Below are positions 23,163 through 33,829 of a stretch of 64,000 nucleotides of DNA, one piece after another. The notes beneath the pieces were generated by a model. That model saw only the letters and a list, made by a program, of their open reading frames with translations. It was not told the origin of the DNA and did not search any database. The DNA is from Sphingomonas sp. Leaf208. Its GTDB lineage: Bacteria; Pseudomonadota; Alphaproteobacteria; Sphingomonadales; Sphingomonadaceae. The stretch is from contig NZ_LMKH01000001.1 in the NCBI RefSeq assembly GCF_001421415.1, positions 310,001 to 374,000 of the forward strand, read 5' to 3'. The position numbers and the translations under genes were made by a program. How positions within the stretch are numbered: position 1 is the stretch's first letter; each line of letters opens with the position of its first letter.

Positions 23163-25835
23163 CTACTTCGCGTTCGCAAGAGCCGCTGCGATCTCCGCGG
23201 ACTTCGCCTGGCGCAATACACCGCAATGGCGAATGCTCTCCAGCGTGCGCTGATAATTTAGCAACCCGACGTTAGCCTTGCGGATCGAGGCGCCGACCTT
23301 GGCATCGATCCGGTCCGCCTGTTCGGCACCGCACTGGACCGCGAGCGCCTGCGGCAGGCGGCTGGTGATGAAGATGCCGTTGCCACCGGCGAGAAGCTTG
23401 TCGTAGTTCGCCAGGATCCAGTCGATGCCGAGATCGCGCGTTTCCGCATTGCCGGCGACGCCGAAGATCAGCCCGATCCTGTCATAGCTCCGCATCCGCT
23501 TGTCTTCGAGCGACAGGAGATAATTGGCGGCGTCGGGCCGCCCACTGGACGCAGCGGCGCCGAGAGCAGCCTGGCGGAAGCCCGGGTCCTCGCTCGATAA
23601 CGCCTTGTCGACCAGCATCTTCGCAGCAGGCAGACCGCCCTCCTCTGCCACCACGGTCAGCGCAGCTCCGAGAAAGCCGGAGTCGAGCGCCGCGGTGTCG
23701 CCCGCCAGGTATTTTTCCCCCGCTGACTTCAGTTTGTTGCGGACGGCGGGATCGCGCGCATCGTCCGCGACGAGATTGACCAGTTCGTGGCGCAGGTTCT
23801 GCCGACCTGGATCATCCTTTGCATAGGCGCCGGCTGCCGGGTTGAACCCCAGCGCGGTCAGGCGCGGTGTGTAGATCGAGGCCAACAGTGCGCGGTAGGC
23901 AGGCAGCGAAGCGGCCGAGATCAAGCCGCGCGAGCGCAACCCAGCAATCCGCCGCCCGCCGTCGATGCTGGCGGTCGAATCCGGGTTCGCCGCGACCGCA
24001 CGCGCTTCCGCGAACAGCCATGCGGCCGGTGCCTTGCCAGCGCGGAACGCGGCCCACAGGCTATCGGTGGTGGCGAGCGCCTCGCCCGGGGACAACGTGC
24101 CCGAAGCCGCGATCAACGCCTGCCAATCCGCCGGTGCCATGTCGAAACGGTAATAGCCCGCACCACCGACGTTCGGCATGATCACCCCTGAGGCGGGCGC
24201 GGCGATCGACGTCGTGGTCTTGTCGAGCAGCGTGCATTGCTTCGCCGCGCCGACCCGAACGCAGAACGGGATCGTCCAGCTCAATGGCGGCGGAGACGAT
24301 CCCAGGAAGGCATAGCGCGACTGGGACGCGACGATGCCGTTACCCTGCCGCCGGACGTCGATGACCGGAACGCCCTGCTGGTCGACGAACGATTTCAGCG
24401 CGGACAGCACGCGCGGATCCTTCGCCGCATCCGAGATCGATTGAAAGAACTGCTCGGACGTCGCATTGCCATACGCGTGACGCTTGAGGTGAAGGCGGAC
24501 CCCCGCCTTGAACTTCTCGTCGCCGAGATAGGCCGCGATCATCGCGACCACCTGCCCGCCCTTTCCGTAGGTTATGCCGTCGAACGCGGAATCGATCTGG
24601 CCGTTGTCGGTGATCGGCTGGTGGATCGGGCGTCCCACCTCCAGCGCATCGGTGTTCATCGTGCCGAAGCCCTCATCCAGCGCACCGACGCCGATGTTGA
24701 GCTCGGGCCGCCAGGCGTTGCCGATGCGATAGCCCATCCAGTTGGCGAAGCTTTCGTTCAGCCAGATGTCGTCCCACCATGCCGGCGTGACGAGGTCGCC
24801 GAACCATTGATGCGAGAGCTCGTGCGCGACGATCATCCCGAACGCCTGCTTGTCGGACGTCGTCGCACCGGCCGAGAGGAAGATGATGCCGTCGCCATAG
24901 GTGTCCGCGCCCGCGTTTTCCATCGCGCCCGGCATGATCGGCGTGCCGATCTGGTCGAGCTTGGGGAACGGGAACGGCTCGCCGAAATATTGCTCGAGCA
25001 GGGACACGATGCGCGGCGTCTCCGCCATCACATAGCCCATCTTGTCCTTCTGCGCGTGCGTCGCGACGGCGCCATACGGCATCGGGGTTGGTCGTTCGGG
25101 AGTCGCCGGGATCGTCCCGATCTGGTGAACGAACGGCCCCGTATCGAACGCAACAAGATAGGTCGGCAATGGCTTGGTAACCGCGAGCTGATGCTTCTCC
25201 ATTCCCCCGGCGACCTTCGTGACGGACACCTTCGGCGCGTTGCCGATCACGACCAGACCTGGATGGGTCGTGACGGACACGGTGAACGGCGTCTTGAAGC
25301 CAGGCTCGTCGAACCCGGGAAACGCAGCGCGTGCATCGATGCTTTCGAACTGCGTCCAGCTGTACCAGGCATCGCCGACCTTGACGTGGAACAGGCCGGA
25401 GGCGCTGTCCCCGAAACTGCCCGTATAATCGAACGCCAGCGTCGCCGCGCCGGCGGGCAGGACATTCGCGAAGTCCAGCCGCGCCGTGCCACTCTGATCG
25501 ACCTGCGTGAAGATCGCCGGGGTAGCCTTGCCACCTACCATCGCGACCGCCTTGCCAATTTTCAGGTCGCGGCCGTGGATATACAGGGATTTTGTCGCAG
25601 CCTTCAGCGTGACGTCGATCTCGTCATGTCCCGAAAACCGGTCAGCCTCGGGCAAAATGGTGAAGTCGAGGCGATACGCCTTGGGTATCGCCGCATCGGA
25701 CAGACGCCCCTTCGGTGCGTTCGCATCGGGTACGATCGCCGCCTTGGCGGGCGCTTCCGTCGTCGCCTTCGGACTTGCATGCGCGGTCGACGACAACAGG
25801 AGAGCGGTGAAACCGATGAGGCATGAGGCGCGCAT
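23163..25835 (-). CDS. M1 family aminopeptidase, exported
   Basis: This 890-residue zinc aminopeptidase has a signal peptide (SCLIGFTALLLSSTAHASP). The exopeptidase motif is GAMENAGADTYG, and the zinc site is HELSH from His338 in VAHELSHQWFGDLVTP, with the third ligand Glu in DIWLNESFANWMGYR. The second half is the helical ERAP1-like C-terminal domain. It removes N-terminal residues from peptides in the periplasm. The start was placed at 25835 because the signal peptide begins there, although the frame is open further upstream. It diverges from the NRPS operon with 167 bases between. Confidence 0.92.
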   Translation of the reverse strand: MRASCLIGFTALLLSSTAHASPKATTEAPAKAAIVPDANAPKGRLSDAAIPKAYRLDFTILPEADRFSGHDEIDVTLKAATKSLYIHGRDLKIGKAVAMVGGKATPAIFTQVDQSGTARLDFANVLPAGAATLAFDYTGSFGDSASGLFHVKVGDAWYSWTQFESIDARAAFPGFDEPGFKTPFTVSVTTHPGLVVIGNAPKVSVTKVAGGMEKHQLAVTKPLPTYLVAFDTGPFVHQIGTIPATPERPTPMPYGAVATHAQKDKMGYVMAETPRIVSLLEQYFGEPFPFPKLDQIGTPIMPGAMENAGADTYGDGIIFLSAGATTSDKQAFGMIVAHELSHQWFGDLVTPAWWDDIWLNESFANWMGYRIGNAWRPELNIGVGALDEGFGTMNTDALEVGRPIHQPITDNGQIDSAFDGITYGKGGQVVAMIAAYLGDEKFKAGVRLHLKRHAYGNATSEQFFQSISDAAKDPRVLSALKSFVDQQGVPVIDVRRQGNGIVASQSRYAFLGSSPPPLSWTIPFCVRVGAAKQCTLLDKTTTSIAAPASGVIMPNVGGAGYYRFDMAPADWQALIAASGTLSPGEALATTDSLWAAFRAGKAPAAWLFAEARAVAANPDSTASIDGGRRIAGLRSRGLISAASLPAYRALLASIYTPRLTALGFNPAAGAYAKDDPGRQNLRHELVNLVADDARDPAVRNKLKSAGEKYLAGDTAALDSGFLGAALTVVAEEGGLPAAKMLVDKALSSEDPGFRQAALGAAASSGRPDAANYLLSLEDKRMRSYDRIGLIFGVAGNAETRDLGIDWILANYDKLLAGGNGIFITSRLPQALAVQCGAEQADRIDAKVGASIRKANVGLLNYQRTLESIRHCGVLRQAKSAEIAAALANAK

Positions 25836-26002
25836 GTGAAGATTCCCGACGAAGGTGTAGTAGGGGTGTAAGTCAGCACCGAAGGCGCCGCAAGCCTTGT
25901 CTGGCCATGCCCTCGATCCGCGCCGGGCGGAAAATTTCGAAGGTTTTCCTGCACGCCGATGACGAGTAGCAAATGGCGTTCGACATCGTCTAAGGCTTGA
26001 GT

Positions 26003-29000
26003 ATGCAGCAAGACACGCCGGTAAGCCCTTCCGATACCGCCATTTTAGCAAGGACGGCTTACCCGTCGATCGCCCCCGCCCCTGCGTTGCGTGCCGCAGA
26101 GCCTTACGCCCGTGACGAACTGCTGCACGAGATCTTCGACGCCACGCGCGCGGCGCATCCCGACGCGATCGCGCTGCGGCTTATCGGCGCAGACGAGGAA
26201 TACGACCGCAAGACCGCCTGGACCTATACCGACCTCGCCACGCGCAGCCTCGCGCTCGCGCACCGCCTGCGCGCGATGGGGATCGGCCGCGGCGACCGCG
26301 TCGTGCTGTGCCTGCCGCGCGGGCTTGACCAGTATATGGCGATCCTCGGCGTGCTGCGCGCAGGTGCCGCCTATGTGCCGGTCGACTGGGGCTATCCGCA
26401 GGACCGCATCGACTTCATCGTTGAGGACAGCGAAGCCGCCCTGACGATCACCGTCGCCAACCGCGTCGCCAACCTGAAGGGGAAAACGCTCGCGCTCGAC
26501 GCGGCGCTGGGCGATCTCGCGGCTGAGCCGTCCGAGCCGATCAGCCGCGACGTCACGCAAAGCGATCCGCAGGACCTCGCCTACATCATCTACACATCGG
26601 GCACGACCGGCCGGCCCAAGGGCGTGATGATCTCGCACGGCAACGCGTGCCACCTGGTCCGCTCGGAAAGCGCGATCCTCGACCTGACCCCGGCCGACGT
26701 CGTGTTCGGCGGCTTCAGCCTCGCGTTCGACATGTCGGTCGAGACGATGTGGAGCGCGTTCTTCGTCGGTGCGGTCGTGCTGGTCGCGACCGAGGCGCTG
26801 GCGACCAGCGGGCCTGACGTGGCGATCGCGCTCGCCGAGGCGAACACGACGATCTGGCACGTCGTCCCCTCGCTGATCGCGCTCGTCGAGCATCCGGTGC
26901 CAACGCTGCGCCTGCTCAACATGGGCGGCGAAGCGTGCCCGGCCGACCTGCCACGCCGCCTCGCGCGTCCGGGCCTCCGCCTGCTCAACACCTACGGTCC
27001 GACCGAGACGTCGGTCACCGCGACCTGGACCGAGGTGTTCCCCGGCCATCGCATCACGATCGGCAAGCCCCTCCCCGGCTACACCGCCTGGGTGGTCGAC
27101 GAGCATATGCAGCCGGTCCCCGACGGCCAGGAAGGCGAACTCGTCATCGGCGGGCCGGGCGTCGGCGTCGGCTACGTCAACCGCCCCGACCTGACCGCCG
27201 AGAAGTTCATCATGACGCCGTTCGACGGCCCGTCGGGCGCGCCTGAGCGGATCTACCGGTCGGGCGACCTGGTGAAGCTCGACGCGGCGGGCGACATCGA
27301 TTTCGTCGGGCGCATCGACACGCAAGTGAAGATCCGCGGCTTCCGCGTCGAACTCGCCGAGATCGAGGCGGTGATCGGCGAATGGCCAAGCGTCGCGCAA
27401 ACCGTCGTCCAGCTCTTCACCGACGGCGATGGCTCCGAATTCCTCGCCGCGTTCCTGATCGCGCGTCCGGCGGAGGAGATCGACATGGTCGGCCTCAAGG
27501 CCCGCGTCGCCGAGCGGCTCCCCAACTACATGCGCCCCGCGGGCTACCAGTTGCTGTCGCACATGCCGACGCTGCCCGCCTCGGGGAAGGTCGACCGCAA
27601 GGCGCTGGTCAAGCCCGAGATCACCGTGACGTCGGACCGCGAGATGGTCGCGCCCGCCACGCCGATGGAGGAAAGCCTGCACCGCGTCTGGGCCGAGGCG
27701 TTCGCGCCGCAGCCGGTATCGGTGCTCGACGACCTGTTCGAGGATCTCGGCGGCCATTCGCTGAAGGCCGCCCGGTTGGTTTCGGCAGCGCGAAAGGTGC
27801 GCGGGCTCGAAGGGCTGTCGCTCGAGGACGTCTACGCCGCGCCGACGATCCGCGCGCTAGCGCTGCGGATCGGCGGCACCACGCCCGTCGCGATCCTCGA
27901 CGAGACCAGCTTCCACCATATCGCGCCGTGGAAGCGCCGGCTGTGCGTCGCCGCGCAGACGCTCGCGCTGCTGCCGATCTACACGCTGGCGGGGCTGCAG
28001 TGGTTCTCACCCTATCTCGCCTACACGCATCTCGCCGGCGACATGCCGCGGGTCGACGCGCTGATCCTCAGCGGGCTGTTCTTCACGGTCGTGCCGATCG
28101 CGTCGATGTTCCTGTCGATCGCGCTCAAATGGCTGATCGTCGGGCGCTTCAAGGCGGGCGATTACCCGCTCTGGGGCAGCTATTATTTCCGCTGGTGGCT
28201 GGTCCGCCGAATCATCGGCGTCACCGCGACGCCGTATCTCGCGGGCACGCCGATGATCCGCGGCTATTACCGGATGATGGGCGCCAAGATCGGCGAGCGC
28301 GTCCATATCGGCACCGGGATCATCGACACTGCCGACCTGCTCCACGCAGACGACGATGCGATCATCAGCGACCAGTCGGTGCTCTCGACCAGCTCGGTCG
28401 AACGCGGGTTGTTGCGGCTCGGCACGGTAAAGCTCGGCAAGGGCGCGTTCGTCGGGTCGATGGCAGTGGTCGGCCGCAACGCCGCGCTCGGCGACGACGC
28501 GATGCTCGACGATCTGTCCGCGCTACCCGCGGATACGACGATCCCGGCTGGCCAACGCTGGGCAGGTTCGCCTGCCGCGCATGACGGCGATGCGCCCCGC
28601 CGCCCGGCCACCGCAGCGCAGCGCAGCGCGGGCCCGGCGATCGGCCTGTTCCTGTGCGCGCTGATCCTGCCGCTGGTCGCGATCCTGCCGATCGCTCCCG
28701 GGCTGATCGCGCTGATCGAGCTCGATTGGGCGACCAGCGGCTATGCCTATGTCGCGGTCGCGCCGCTGCTCGCGGTCACCTATGTCGTGATGATGTGCGT
28801 GCTGACCGTGGCGGCCAAGCGCCTGATCCTCGGCCGCGTCGCGCCTGCGGTCTATGCGCTCAACAGCGGGTTCTACGTCCGCTACTGGTTCGTTCAGCAG
28901 ATCAACGACCTCGCGCTTCGCCTGCTCCACCCGATCTTTGCGACGCTGTACGTGGTGCCTTGGTACCGTGCGCTCGGCGTGAAAGTCGGTCGTCGCGCGG

Positions 29001-30028
29001 AAATCTCGACCGCCAGCGCGATCGTGCCCGACCTCGTCGAGATCGGCGAGGAGAGCTTCATCGCGGACTCGGTGATCTTCGGCGCGGCGCGGATCGGCCA
29101 CGGCACGATCGAACTCGCGCACACGAAGATCGGCCGCCGCAGCTTCATCGGCAACTCCGCACTGCTGCCGAGCGGCACGCAGATCGGCGACGAGGTGCTC
29201 GTCGGCGTCCTCTCGAAGCCACCGAGCGATCCCGCGCTCGCCACCGAAGCGGGCAGCACCTGGTTCGGCTCACCCGCGATCAAGCTGCCGGTGCGACAGG
29301 TCAACACGATGTTCGACGAAGGCGCGCGGTTCAATCCGTCGCGCGCGCTGATCGCCACGCGCCTGTCGATCGAGGCGGTTCGCACCACGCTGTCCCTGAC
29401 CGCGTTCCTGGTGTTCTTCAGCTTGCTTCTGTCGGTGGTCGGCGACCTCGACGATCTCGACAATGGCGCACTGGTCGTCGCGGCGACGTTCCCGTTCCTG
29501 TACGTCGGCTTCTGCCTGGCCTGCGGGATCTTCGTCCTCGCGCTCAAATGGCTCGTCGTCGGCCGCTACAAGGTCACGACTGCGCCGCTCTGGAGCACGT
29601 TCGTCTGGCGCACCGAACTGGTGACCGCGACTTACGAGAACCTGGCGGTCGCCAACCTGCTCGAACCGCTTCGCGGCACGCCGTGGATCGCGCTCTATCT
29701 CCGGCTGATGGGCGCGCGGATCGGCAAACGCTGCTACATCGACACCACCGACCTGACCGAGCACGACCTCGTCGACATCGGCGACGACGTCGCGCTCAAC
29801 GACTTCGCCGGCCTGCAGACGCACCTGTTCGAGGACCGCGTGATGAAGGTCGGCGCGATCCGCGTCGGCGACCGCGCGACGATCGGCTCGCTCGCGATCG
29901 TGCTGTACGACGCCGAGATCGGCGCAGACGCACAGCTCGGCGACCTGTCGGTGGTGATGAAGGGCGAGACCTTGCCCGACGGCACGAGCTGGGACGGGAG
30001 CCCGGCGCGGATCGCCGTCGCGACGTGA
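26003..30028 (+). CDS. Pls/PosA-type single-module NRPS with three tandem membrane/beta-helix units
   Basis: This 1341-residue protein has the layout of epsilon-poly-L-lysine synthetase. The adenylation domain (about 30-540) shows YIIYTSGTTGRPKG at 194, NTYGPTETSV, IYRSGDLVKLD and LPASGKVDRKAL. The carrier domain (about 555-630) has its pantetheine Ser at 586 in DLGGHSLKAA. Then come three repeats, each with two transmembrane helices ending in KWLIVGRFK (about 709), KRLILGRVA (939) or KWLVVGRYK (1182), and a hexapeptide beta-helix starting at MGAKIGERVHIG (about 757), LGVKVGRRAEIS (992) or MGARIGKRCYID (1236). No condensation or thioesterase domain is present. In Pls such tandem units extend the chain. 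The predicted product is an amino-acid homopolymer or short oligomer made at the inner membrane. The ATG at 26003 is preferred over a TTG two codons earlier. Confidence 0.88.
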   Translation: MQQDTPVSPSDTAILARTAYPSIAPAPALRAAEPYARDELLHEIFDATRAAHPDAIALRLIGADEEYDRKTAWTYTDLATRSLALAHRLRAMGIGRGDRVVLCLPRGLDQYMAILGVLRAGAAYVPVDWGYPQDRIDFIVEDSEAALTITVANRVANLKGKTLALDAALGDLAAEPSEPISRDVTQSDPQDLAYIIYTSGTTGRPKGVMISHGNACHLVRSESAILDLTPADVVFGGFSLAFDMSVETMWSAFFVGAVVLVATEALATSGPDVAIALAEANTTIWHVVPSLIALVEHPVPTLRLLNMGGEACPADLPRRLARPGLRLLNTYGPTETSVTATWTEVFPGHRITIGKPLPGYTAWVVDEHMQPVPDGQEGELVIGGPGVGVGYVNRPDLTAEKFIMTPFDGPSGAPERIYRSGDLVKLDAAGDIDFVGRIDTQVKIRGFRVELAEIEAVIGEWPSVAQTVVQLFTDGDGSEFLAAFLIARPAEEIDMVGLKARVAERLPNYMRPAGYQLLSHMPTLPASGKVDRKALVKPEITVTSDREMVAPATPMEESLHRVWAEAFAPQPVSVLDDLFEDLGGHSLKAARLVSAARKVRGLEGLSLEDVYAAPTIRALALRIGGTTPVAILDETSFHHIAPWKRRLCVAAQTLALLPIYTLAGLQWFSPYLAYTHLAGDMPRVDALILSGLFFTVVPIASMFLSIALKWLIVGRFKAGDYPLWGSYYFRWWLVRRIIGVTATPYLAGTPMIRGYYRMMGAKIGERVHIGTGIIDTADLLHADDDAIISDQSVLSTSSVERGLLRLGTVKLGKGAFVGSMAVVGRNAALGDDAMLDDLSALPADTTIPAGQRWAGSPAAHDGDAPRRPATAAQRSAGPAIGLFLCALILPLVAILPIAPGLIALIELDWATSGYAYVAVAPLLAVTYVVMMCVLTVAAKRLILGRVAPAVYALNSGFYVRYWFVQQINDLALRLLHPIFATLYVVPWYRALGVKVGRRAEISTASAIVPDLVEIGEESFIADSVIFGAARIGHGTIELAHTKIGRRSFIGNSALLPSGTQIGDEVLVGVLSKPPSDPALATEAGSTWFGSPAIKLPVRQVNTMFDEGARFNPSRALIATRLSIEAVRTTLSLTAFLVFFSLLLSVVGDLDDLDNGALVVAATFPFLYVGFCLACGIFVLALKWLVVGRYKVTTAPLWSTFVWRTELVTATYENLAVANLLEPLRGTPWIALYLRLMGARIGKRCYIDTTDLTEHDLVDIGDDVALNDFAGLQTHLFEDRVMKVGAIRVGDRATIGSLAIVLYDAEIGADAQLGDLSVVMKGETLPDGTSWDGSPARIAVAT

Positions 30029-30624
30029 CGCCGGTCTGGCACTACGGTCCGCTCGACGCGCTCGTCTGGGACGGGCGGTCGCCAATCGCGTGGAGTGTTG
30101 CCGAGACCGGACCGTACGCTGCCGGCCTGCCCGGCGATGCGCGCGCGATCCGACACGGCCTGGCCGTTGCGCTCATCCGCAAACTGGCCGGCGACTCTGA
30201 CGATGTTCGACTGACACGCAGTGCGGCCGGCGCGCCGATCGTTTCCGCCCCCGGCGGCTGGTATCTCAGCCTCTCCAGCCGCGGCGCACACGCCCTGATC
30301 GGCCTTGCGCGCCAGCCGATCGCGGTCGACCGCGAAGTCGTCGACGACCACGCTCCGCTCTGGGACATGCTAACCCCGACCGAAGCCGACGCGCTCCGCC
30401 GCCTGCCCGCCCTCGCCCAGCCCCACGCATGGCTCCGTCGGTGGACGATCAAGGAAGCGCACGCGAAGCTCATCGGCGAACCCCGCCGCATCCGCCCCGA
30501 ATCGATCGAAACCATCGTCACCGATCCAACCCACGCGACCGCAACGTTCGAAGGCACTTCGCGCTGCTGGAGCCGTTCCATCCCCGACGCGATCGAAACC
30601 ATCGCGCAGTGGAGCCAGCCATGA
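30025..30624 (+). CDS. 4'-phosphopantetheinyl transferase superfamily protein
   Basis: This protein of about 199 residues starts at a GTG overlapping the NRPS stop (GTGA). The family signature is IAVDREVV with Asp102 and Glu104 (magnesium ligands) and LRRWTIKEAHAKLIGE with Lys143-Glu144 and a downstream Lys. Such enzymes move phosphopantetheine from CoA to a carrier-domain serine. The four-base overlap makes it the obvious activator of the carrier domain in the preceding NRPS. Sequence outside the signature is divergent, so the call rests on motifs plus context. Confidence 0.82.
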   Translation: MTPVWHYGPLDALVWDGRSPIAWSVAETGPYAAGLPGDARAIRHGLAVALIRKLAGDSDDVRLTRSAAGAPIVSAPGGWYLSLSSRGAHALIGLARQPIAVDREVVDDHAPLWDMLTPTEADALRRLPALAQPHAWLRRWTIKEAHAKLIGEPRRIRPESIETIVTDPTHATATFEGTSRCWSRSIPDAIETIAQWSQP

Positions 30625-31139
30625 CCAGAATCCTGACCCGCCGCTACGAGGACAAGGACCGCGCTGCCGTCCTCGCGATCTTCGACTCGAACCTCCCCGA
30701 GTATTTCGGCGACGGCGACCGCGATTGGCTGGAAGAAACGCTCGACGACCCCGACGGCCCGGCATTCGTGGTCGACGTCGACGGCATCCCGGGCGCGTTC
30801 GGCGGCTACGAAATCTGGGAGCATTACAACAAGGCACTGCTCTATTGGGGTATGGCCGCGCGCGCATATCACGGCGCCGGTCTCGGCAAACTGCTGCTGT
30901 TCGAACGCCTACTCCACGTCGCCACCTCAGGCGAGCCGCCCACGCGCTACGTCACAGTCGATACGTCGCCCCAGGTCTCTCCGTTCTTCCAGCATTGCGG
31001 CTTCGAACTGACCAGCGTCTGGCCCGGGGGCTACCGGTCCGGCATGGACATGCACGAACTCCGCTTCGATATTGCGGGGGTGTCGCTCGAAGACCTGACG
31101 GGCAGACGCGACGCTGCTTTTGCGCGATGTACGGCCTGA
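30621..31139 (+). CDS. GNAT family N-acetyltransferase, third gene of the NRPS operon
   Basis: This 172-residue protein starts MTRILTRRYEDKDRAAVLA. The acetyl-CoA-binding motif is in MAARAYHGAGLGKLLLFERL (a GxGxG/A variant), followed by VDTSPQVSPFFQHCGFEL, typical of GNAT motif B. It is joined to the transferase gene by ATGA, so all three genes are one translational unit. It could acetylate the NRPS product, a precursor, or the product for self-protection; sequence alone does not decide. Confidence 0.82.
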   Translation: MTRILTRRYEDKDRAAVLAIFDSNLPEYFGDGDRDWLEETLDDPDGPAFVVDVDGIPGAFGGYEIWEHYNKALLYWGMAARAYHGAGLGKLLLFERLLHVATSGEPPTRYVTVDTSPQVSPFFQHCGFELTSVWPGGYRSGMDMHELRFDIAGVSLEDLTGRRDAAFARCTA

Positions 31140-31957: not shown

Positions 31958-33230
31958 ACCGGTCATAGTCCGCATCGGACAGTCGCACGTCATATGTCGT
32001 CTCGAGCTCGTCATCGACGCTCCCGAACACTTCGCCATGCGCATGCAGCCAAGCAGCGCCCGCGCCATCGCTGGCATCGAGCGTGATCCGGTAGCGCCGA
32101 TGCGCCCCCGTCAGCTTTGCCGCGATCTGCTCGATCAGATGCGGCACCCCTTCCCCGCTCAGCGCCGATATCGCCACGACATCGTCGCGCCGCGCCGCTT
32201 CGCCGGCAATCTCGTCGTGCGCGTCGGGGTCAAGCAAGTCGAGCTTGTTCCAAACCTCGAACCGCGGCGTATTGTCGTCGACACCGATCTCGGCCAGCAC
32301 AGTCTCGACATCGGCACGCTGCGCCTCCGAATCCGGGTGGGCGATATCACGGACATGGACCAACAGATCGGCGGAGACCACCTCTTCCAGAGTTGCCTTG
32401 AACGCGGCGACCAACTGCGTCGGCAGGTCAGAAACGAAGCCGACGGTGTCCGACAGGATCGCCTTGTCTAGCCCAGGGAGCTGAATCTGACGTAGCGTCG
32501 GATCTAGCGTTGCGAACAGCAGATCCTCCGCCATCACGTTGGCACCAGTCACGCGATTGAACAACGTCGACTTACCCGCATTGGTATAGCCGACCAGCGC
32601 GATTACCGGCCATGGCGCGCGCTGGCGCCGTTCACGGTGTAGCCCGCGCGTCCGGCTGACCTGCTCAAGCTCACGCTTCAATCGCGCCATCCGGTCGCGA
32701 ATCAAACGACGATCCGCTTCGATCTGGGTTTCGCCCGGACCGCCAAGGAAGCCGAAGCCGCCGCGCTGGCGTTCGAGATGGGTCCAGCTCCGCACGAGCC
32801 GGCCAGCCTGGTAATCAAGATGCGCGAGTTCGACCTGCAAGCGCCCCTCGGCCGTCGCGGCGCGTTCGCCGAAGATCTCGAGAATCAGTCCGGTGCGATC
32901 GATCACCTTCACCTCGAGCGCTTTCTCCAGATTGCGCTGCTGGATCGGAGTCAGGCTCGCATCGAAAACGACCAGTCCCGCCTCTTCCATCCGAACTTGG
33001 GTGGCCAACAATTCAACCTGCCCGCTTCCAATCAGCGTTGCGGGCTTTGGCTGGCGGACGCGGTAAGCGATCCGTTCTACCACCTCTACACCGATCGCAG
33101 CGGCCAACCCCGCGGTTTCCTCCAACCGGGCATCTACGTCGCGCGCAGCGTCGCCTTGGTCGGGAAGAACGACGATCGCTCGTGTTCCACGGGTGAACTC
33201 GTCCCGATCGCGTTCGAAACCACTACTCAA
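31938..33230 (-). CDS. hflX: GTPase HflX
   Basis: This 430-residue ribosome-associated GTPase has an N-terminal HflX domain ([40 protein letters not shown]), a linker with [20 protein letters not shown], and a G domain with P-loop [17 protein letters not shown], switch ATLDPTLR, G3 [11 protein letters not shown] and G4 NKLD. It splits or rescues stalled ribosomes under stress. The start overlaps the hfq stop by four bases, so hfq-hflX are translationally coupled, the standard proteobacterial pair. Confidence 0.95.
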
Positions 33231-33730
33231 TCGTCATCGTCCGTTTCATCCGTATCGGTGGGCTCTTCGGCAAGGTTCAGCGGGCGGGCCGGCTGGATCG
33301 TCGAGACAGCGTGCTTGTAGACGAGTTGTGCCATGCCTTCGCGCTGGAGCAGCATGCAAAACAGATCGAAGCCTGCGATCTGGCCCTGCAGCATGACGCC
33401 GTTGATGAGGAACATCGTCACGCTATCTTCGGATTTGCGCACCGCGTTGAGAAATATATCCTGCAAAAGCGGGTGCTTCTTCTGGTTTTCTCCCACCGCA
33501 TCGACGATTGCCGACACGTCCATGGGCCCAGCAGGCATGATCGTCGAGATCGCATGCTTGTAGATCAGCTGCGACTGGCCATCGCGGCGGAGCAGGACGG
33601 AAAAATTATCGAACCATGTGACGATGCCCTGGAGCTTTACGCCCTTGACGAGGAACATGGTGACCGGCGTCTTGGAGCGCCGGAGTGCGTTCAGGAACAG
33701 ATCCTGAAGCGAGCCTGGTTTATCGGCCAA
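33227..33730 (-). CDS. hfq: Tandem two-domain RNA chaperone Hfq
   Basis: This protein of about 167 residues contains two complete Sm/Hfq modules. The first (about 8-66) has [40 protein letters not shown] and [12 protein letters not shown]. The second (about 89-148) has [40 protein letters not shown] and [13 protein letters not shown] short linker joins them, and the C-terminus is an acidic tail ending DDDD. A normal Hfq is one module of about 80-100 residues forming hexamers; tandem copies could build a pseudo-hexamer from three chains. I chose the TTG at 33730 because AAAGGG is eight bases upstream; another TTG lies 13 codons earlier. It is the gene downstream of ntrX, separated by a hairpin. 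Confidence 0.93.
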
Positions 33731-33829
33731 TGGGATAACCCTTTGTTTTTGGCGGGACTTTGCCCGCAAGGCGCCGTTTCCCGGCGTCGGAGATGCACCC
33801 GGTTACCGGGCGCGGTACTGATCTATGAT

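Follow-up and report, generated by a model that had tools for sequence, protein, structure and literature searches.

The window analysed here, a stretch of 64,000 nucleotides from Sphingomonas sp. Leaf208 (contig NZ_LMKH01000001.1, positions 310,001 to 374,000), carries a block of three coupled genes: pls, for a single-module nonribosomal peptide synthetase (NRPS) of the Pls/PosA family, followed by genes for a 4′-phosphopantetheinyl transferase (PPTase) and a GNAT-fold N-acetyltransferase (hereafter GNAT). A preliminary description, made from the sequence, had placed this block at positions 26003 to 31139 with its genes joined by four-base overlaps. Both points were confirmed: pls starts with ATG at 26003 and stops at 30026–30028, the PPTase gene starts with GTG at 30025 and the GNAT gene with ATG at 30621, these two end at 30624 and 31139, and the two junctions read GTGA and ATGA. 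The genes and the cassette that they form are as follows, in window coordinates.

26003..30028, forward strand: pls, Pls/PosA-family single-module NRPS, predicted delta-poly-L-ornithine synthetase (1341 amino acids; TIGR02353, 785.5 bits)
30025..30624, forward strand: PPTase gene, PF01648 (199 amino acids; GTGA overlap with pls)
30621..31139, forward strand: gene for the GNAT-fold N-acetyltransferase (172 amino acids; ATGA overlap with the PPTase gene)
25966..31139, forward strand: cassette, common to close relatives in which the trio is located elsewhere (starts about 36 bases ahead of pls and runs through the GNAT gene; blastn)

The three genes form a genuine module and move together, because they co-occur, because they are found in 11 left-flank contexts and because homology between sites ends close to the trio. 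At the window site it lies between a gene for an M1 family aminopeptidase and mazG-hflX-hfq; among the best 80 of 286 relatives, those with a Pls 95–99% identical carry the trio either at this site or elsewhere. In blastn comparisons with eight loci at other sites, homology starts at 25966 or 25967 in seven and at 26019 in the eighth (L021), and ends between 31084 and 31131; that is, homology between different sites stops within tens of bases of the trio. The flanks of 31 loci fall into 11 left and 14 right groups (the window copy, L003, being left out; L033 and L156 are one locus that entered as two). In nine genomes that carry the trio at another place, mazG is present; their homology to the window starts at mazG, and the 1.5 kb on either side of that site contains no part of the trio. 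A 385-kb plasmid of S. parapaucimobilis also carries the trio, with the same four-base overlaps and with the annotations Pls/PosA family, PPTase and GNAT. The identities of the genes, their overlaps, their co-occurrence, the independence of the block from its flanks and the purifying selection described below are all matters of direct observation.

The plasmid copy (NZ_CP155753.1:370493-384586, L175), from a Chinese-cabbage isolate, is preceded on the same strand by genes for an MFS transporter, an SDR protein and a glycosidase. Genome G454 (G454:C1:731643-734830) and locus L080 have a cassette broken up into several reading frames; for G454, sequencing errors are as likely as decay since the assembly is only 80% complete.

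The synthetase is of a recognizable type. Residues 651–1335 match the NCBIfam model TIGR02353 (‘Pls/PosA family’) at 785.5 bits, well over its cut-off of 423.1, and the Pfam matches comprise PF00501 (residues 46–391), PF13193, PF00550 (residues 559–621) and hexapeptide/beta-helix families, with no condensation or thioesterase domain among the six Pfam families found at E ≤ 0.001. The scan and the family model agree with the preliminary description, which had seen one adenylation and one carrier domain, unaccompanied by condensation or thioesterase domains, in the architecture of epsilon-poly-lysine synthetase. This Pls is the only one of six TIGR02353 matches in the genome, and the only one of 16 amino-acid adenylation matches, to score above the cut-off. 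Its parts are the following.

26222..27409, forward strand: adenylation domain, residues 74–469 (TIGR01733)
27677..27865, forward strand: carrier (PP-binding) domain, residues 559–621, with the predicted phosphopantetheine serine, Ser586, in GGHSL at 27758–27760
27953..30007, forward strand: membrane-bound terminal (predicted polymerising) domain, residues 651–1335 (TIGR02353, hydropathy, model)
29816..29848, forward strand: QTHLFEDRVMK, residues 1272–1282, in the third beta-helix unit, candidate catalytic centre
29957..29968, forward strand: MKGE, residues 1319–1322, possibly part of the same centre

Aligned to the solved adenylation domain of PosA, the specificity code reads DMEHNGTVTK (D243, M244, E247, H286, N306, G308, T330, V338, T339 and K529, the last outside the TIGR01733 match), with the Asp and Glu typical of the family at positions 1 and 3. 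The code of PosA is DMEHNGTVSK (PMC10522769); nine of ten residues are thus identical, including Met at position 2, and the change of Ser to Thr at position 9 is conservative. In PosA, mutants of Asp217 and Glu221 are inactive, Met218 restricts how long the side chain can be, and the delta-amine is bound by Thr304 and Ser313 (PMC10522769); all are kept in the window Pls except Ser313, which is replaced by Thr. Because nine of the ten code residues match PosA, L-ornithine is predicted as the substrate, and delta-poly- or oligo-L-ornithine as the product. Of 95 aligned Pls open reading frames, 71 share the code of the window Pls; once 11 duplicate locus pairs are merged, the figure is 61 of 84 (leaving 61 same-code and 23 other-code loci). 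These counts, and those of neighbouring genes below, leave out Pls reading frames shorter than 1100 amino acids (L016, L018, L067, L078, L080 and short fragment loci), and the survey of relatives, which kept the best 80 of 286 (75 loci), leans to close ones.

Other codes also occur in the genus. Four genomes (G155, G378, G450 and G459; loci L147, L152, L153 and L154) encode a divergent Sphingomonas Pls with the code DSECYGGVTK, about 30% identical over the terminal domain in the three that were aligned, with no coupled PPTase detected; this is the code of a Bdellovibrionales enzyme modestly active with L-arginine (PMC10522769). In genome G470 there is, besides a Pls gene with the ornithine code, another copy (L155) whose code, DLEDIGSVVK, resembles the unassigned type DLEDIGTV(T/V/I)K of PMC10522769.

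The C-terminal part of Pls has six hydrophobic segments by hydropathy, and an AlphaFold2 model of residues 640–1341 (predicted local distance difference test score (pLDDT) 90.9, predicted template modelling score 0.91) confidently predicts long helices followed by a stretch of short strands, three times over. The model matches left-handed beta-helix acyltransferases, and its single beta-helices match hexapeptide acyltransferases. The three membrane/beta-helix units named in the preliminary description are borne out by these results. Q1272, H1274, E1277 and K1282 are invariant in 29 of 29 diverse Pls members, as are M1319, K1320 and E1322. From this conservation we infer a candidate single active centre of the polymerising domain at His1274/Glu1277, formed around the QxHxxE motif, which is invariant, of the third beta-helix unit.

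Alternatively, Pls might pass ornithine, or short chains of it, on to some other acceptor (for instance an alcohol or a polyamine), and the product would then be a small conjugate. The acceptor is not readable from the sequence, and an excerpt of PMC9606270 describes polymer ester derivatives with alcohols as further products of a Streptomyces Pls. However, the family products given in PMC10522769 are polymers of diamino acids, and PosA, with nearly the same code, makes 7–12 units according to the abstract of that paper; we regard a conjugate as quite improbable.

Sfp-like PPTases are marked by an acidic pair and a W...KEA..K motif. The PPTase of the trio matches PF01648 at 35.5 bits (cut-off 25), and its D102, E104, W140, E144, A145 and K148 are conserved in at least 97% of 71 relatives, as expected of the Sfp-like type. 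Among the 61 distinct loci with the ornithine code, 56 have a hidden Markov model match to a PPTase within 150 bases downstream of pls on the same strand. The pls-PPTase pair is widespread among the alphaproteobacterial loci compared, its carriers (among the best 80 of 286 relatives) including Sphingomonas, Novosphingobium, Caulobacter and Agrobacterium. We also surveyed 201 genomes of the genus, scoring a limited number of first-look candidates in each: a PosA-like enzyme is matched in 35 of them, leaf isolates included (31 over the family cut-off), and a Pls match was found in 10 of 298 sampled genomes of the family. The PPTase query matches 31 genus genomes, all within those 35, and the four Pls genomes that it misses are the carriers of the divergent Pls with another code.

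The PPTase might instead be a general Sfp-type enzyme of the cell that is merely located in the operon and also serves other carriers, of which the genome has three further carrier-like matches. We consider this highly improbable: at E ≤ 1e-6 the PPTase query matches none of the 166 genus genomes that lack Pls (which may have more divergent PPTases), and carriers in those genomes therefore manage without a close relative of this enzyme. The genome itself has two PF01648 matches, the PPTase of the trio and AcpS, the latter recognized by eye from its sequence and its neighbours pdxJ and lepB. The description of the transferase as ‘private’ is supported on both counts.

The third protein matches PF13673 at 25.3 bits (cut-off 23.6), so that the carrier-priming enzyme and the acetyltransferase first proposed as partners of pls both stand. 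Its model is a complete GNAT fold of the superfamily, confidently predicted (pLDDT 93.5). The GNAT is acidic, with a net charge of −11 (the mean for 38 aligned sequences is −7); this agrees with a cationic substrate, though it is no proof of one. Within about 2 Z units, its structural neighbours include RimI, Ard1 and the tabtoxin resistance protein among many others, and protein N-acetyltransferases are among the closest folds. The main rival for the role of the GNAT, which we consider unlikely, draws on this last resemblance: the GNAT would be a regulatory protein acetyltransferase that acetylates Lys529, the A10 lysine of the adenylation domain, and so switches off the synthetase, like AcuA or Pat. 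Pls is indeed an AMP-forming enzyme with a conserved lysine, AcuA is an established regulator of acetyl-CoA synthetase, and another AMP-forming ligase is reported to be acetylated (excerpts of PMC11255334 and PMC11619455). Yet Lys529 is present in 95 of 95 aligned Pls reading frames, including those without an adjacent GNAT, Pls is retained in genomes that lack the GNAT, and no deacetylase is among the three genes.

Homologues of the GNAT with at least 68% identity occur in 28 of the 201 genus genomes (counting the split copy in G454), 27 of which also have Pls, and in 25 of these 27 the GNAT gene stands behind the PPTase gene. The preliminary description would have been refuted by homologues in which the three genes are never neighbours. 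This is not the case: in the genome-context survey, a GNAT gene follows the PPTase gene in 30 of the 61 distinct same-code loci and in none of the 23 with other codes. Six more genus genomes have only a GNAT match of 33–39% identity and no Pls, and these were not counted as having the GNAT of the trio. It is conceivable, if rather unlikely, that the GNAT is a mere passenger, namely an amine acetyltransferase of unrelated function that was trapped beside pls-PPTase in one clade and has travelled with the pair since; the split between same-code and other-code loci would fit this, as would genome G482, in which the GNAT lies about 4 kb from Pls, beside an aspartyl protease gene. Against a passenger, the GNAT start codon overlaps the PPTase gene, the GNAT is kept across the 11 left-flank contexts and accompanied by Pls in 27 of 28 genomes, and it is under purifying selection.

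Purifying selection acts on all three proteins: in comparisons of the window with up to 10 loci, the ratio of nonsynonymous to synonymous substitution rates (dN/dS) is 0.05–0.22 for Pls and 0.22–0.43 for the PPTase, and 0.14–0.20 for the GNAT (9 loci). Protein distances within the trio are correlated at 0.92, 0.88 and 0.91 (30 loci); the highest value in 2000 label permutations is 0.44. The members of the trio thus evolve together; as related sequences are not independent, the correlations and dN/dS values describe this and are to be read as descriptive.

On these grounds we think it somewhat probable, reading from the sequences, that the three-gene block comprises a Pls making delta-linked poly- or oligo-L-ornithine at the inner membrane, a PPTase priming its carrier and a GNAT acetylating amines of the product. 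By analogy with its family, the PPTase would attach phosphopantetheine to Ser586; the adenylation domain, given its PosA-like code, would then adenylate L-ornithine and load it as a thioester. Enzymes of the Pls/PosA family polymerise without condensation or thioesterase domains. Here, the side-chain amine of ornithine or of the growing chain would attack the thioester repeatedly in the membrane triple beta-helix domain. Because of the delta-linkage each residue would keep a free alpha-amine, and the GNAT may acetylate all or only a fraction of these amines, or else the end of the chain, and so lower the charge of the product and its toxicity to the producer. This step, reasoned by analogy with the streptothricin acetyltransferase (STAT) acting on a beta-lysine homopolymer, is the least certain; the GNAT likely acetylates free amino groups of the product, capping or defusing it.

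Several observations weigh against this reading of the block as a polyornithine synthetase with its own priming and acetylating enzymes. The GNAT is absent beside many Pls genes, and its fold matches do not name a substrate, because so many acetyltransferases fall within about 2 Z units. The GNAT is dispensable: four of the 35 Pls genomes (G345, G359, G412 and G484) have Pls and PPTase without it, and it is a lineage-specific addition in one Sphingomonas clade, as such genomes show. Two further genomes have their GNAT at a distance from Pls, of about 4 kb in G482 (the copy beside the aspartyl protease gene) and about 9 kb in G470; a tree nests both (L051 and L144) within the cassette clade, which suggests that they are former neighbours of Pls. 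A GNAT with 68% identity, in a separate clade, is present in genome G471 (78% complete), where Pls has no match. At loci with other codes a PPTase is coupled in 6 of 23 but not in the other 17, and five of the 61 same-code loci (L046, L011 and the Bacteroidota loci L081, L086 and L089) lack a coupled PPTase. The cassette was found to hold neither an exporter nor a degrading enzyme. Over the 340 pairs with a Pls distance above 0.05, the distance correlations are lower, at 0.76, 0.65 and 0.66, and PosA of Acinetobacter baumannii is encoded by a single-gene operon without PPTase or GNAT partners (PMC10522769). At L046 the gene after pls was considered and is of the MarR type, not a PPTase.

In other respects PosA closely resembles the window Pls, with adenylation and carrier domains before a membrane triple beta-helix domain, no condensation or thioesterase domain, and nine of ten code residues in common (PMC10522769); it differs in Ser rather than Thr at code position 9 and is about 37% identical over the matched terminal domain (Acinetobacter records), and it is the window pls that is coupled to both further genes. 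The epsilon-poly-L-lysine synthetase of Streptomyces albulus shares the domain order and family model but has alanine at the length-setting position of its code (PMC10522769). According to an excerpt of PMC9223678, Streptomyces pls is coupled to pldII, a gene for a degrading enzyme; in the window no peptidase gene is coupled to pls, whose partners are the PPTase and GNAT genes instead. STAT, first found in a producer according to an excerpt of PMC11702664, acetylates an amine of the beta-lysine homopolymer of streptothricin, and the GNAT is proposed to work in a similar way on a diamino acid homopolymer; the likeness is one of proposed function. Unlike the predicted product of the window Pls, the streptothricin polymer comes from an adenylation domain that stands alone (PMC10522769). 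The control of AMP-forming acyl-CoA synthetases by AcuA and Pat likewise pairs a GNAT with an AMP-forming enzyme.

Pls/PosA enzymes and their wide spread are already known (PMC10522769); before PosA, cationic homopolymers of diamino acids were reported among bacteria only from Actinomycetes, as the 2023 abstract of that paper puts it. What distinguishes the window unit from PosA and Streptomyces Pls is the coupling of pls to a PPTase and a GNAT gene. The preliminary description knew of no account of this combination, and we found no pls-PPTase-GNAT unit in the titles and abstract openings of a literature search. Cationic diamino acid homopolymers serve as preservatives and are under study as antifungal and delivery agents, and the module is a compact three-gene set for making such a product elsewhere. 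A bolder possibility, which we put forward tentatively, is that of a self-contained, site-hopping module that brings its own priming enzyme, works wherever it has landed, and whose GNAT alpha-N-acetylates delta-poly-L-ornithine to a partly or fully neutralised polyornithine. Such an acetylated polyornithine would be, to our knowledge, the first enzymatically acetyl-tailored member of this class of polymers. The coupled gene raises the question whether the GNAT tailors and neutralises the polymer or switches the synthetase.

Besides the PPTase and GNAT, no other conserved family, such as an exporter or a regulator, adjoins pls in more than 5 of 55 dereplicated loci (blast clustering, with a home-made gene caller that missed some genes). 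In five Caulobacterales loci (L061, L063, L064, L065 and L079) pls is followed at a short distance by a gene whose product, by eye, resembles a lipoprotein cytochrome c with CxxCH rather than a GNAT. Divergent from pls in the window is the M1 family aminopeptidase gene (23163–25835, reverse strand), with a signal-peptide-like start by eye. We considered it as a part of the system since Streptomyces pldII degrades the polymer, and rejected it because, among the loci compared, it adjoins the cassette only at this chromosomal site (L019, L020, L035, L041, L062 and L080). On the other side of the trio, at 33227–33769 on the reverse strand, lies a gene for an Hfq-like protein of 180 amino acids that seemingly consists of two tandem Hfq-like halves, judging by eye from the translation and from internal DNA repeats.
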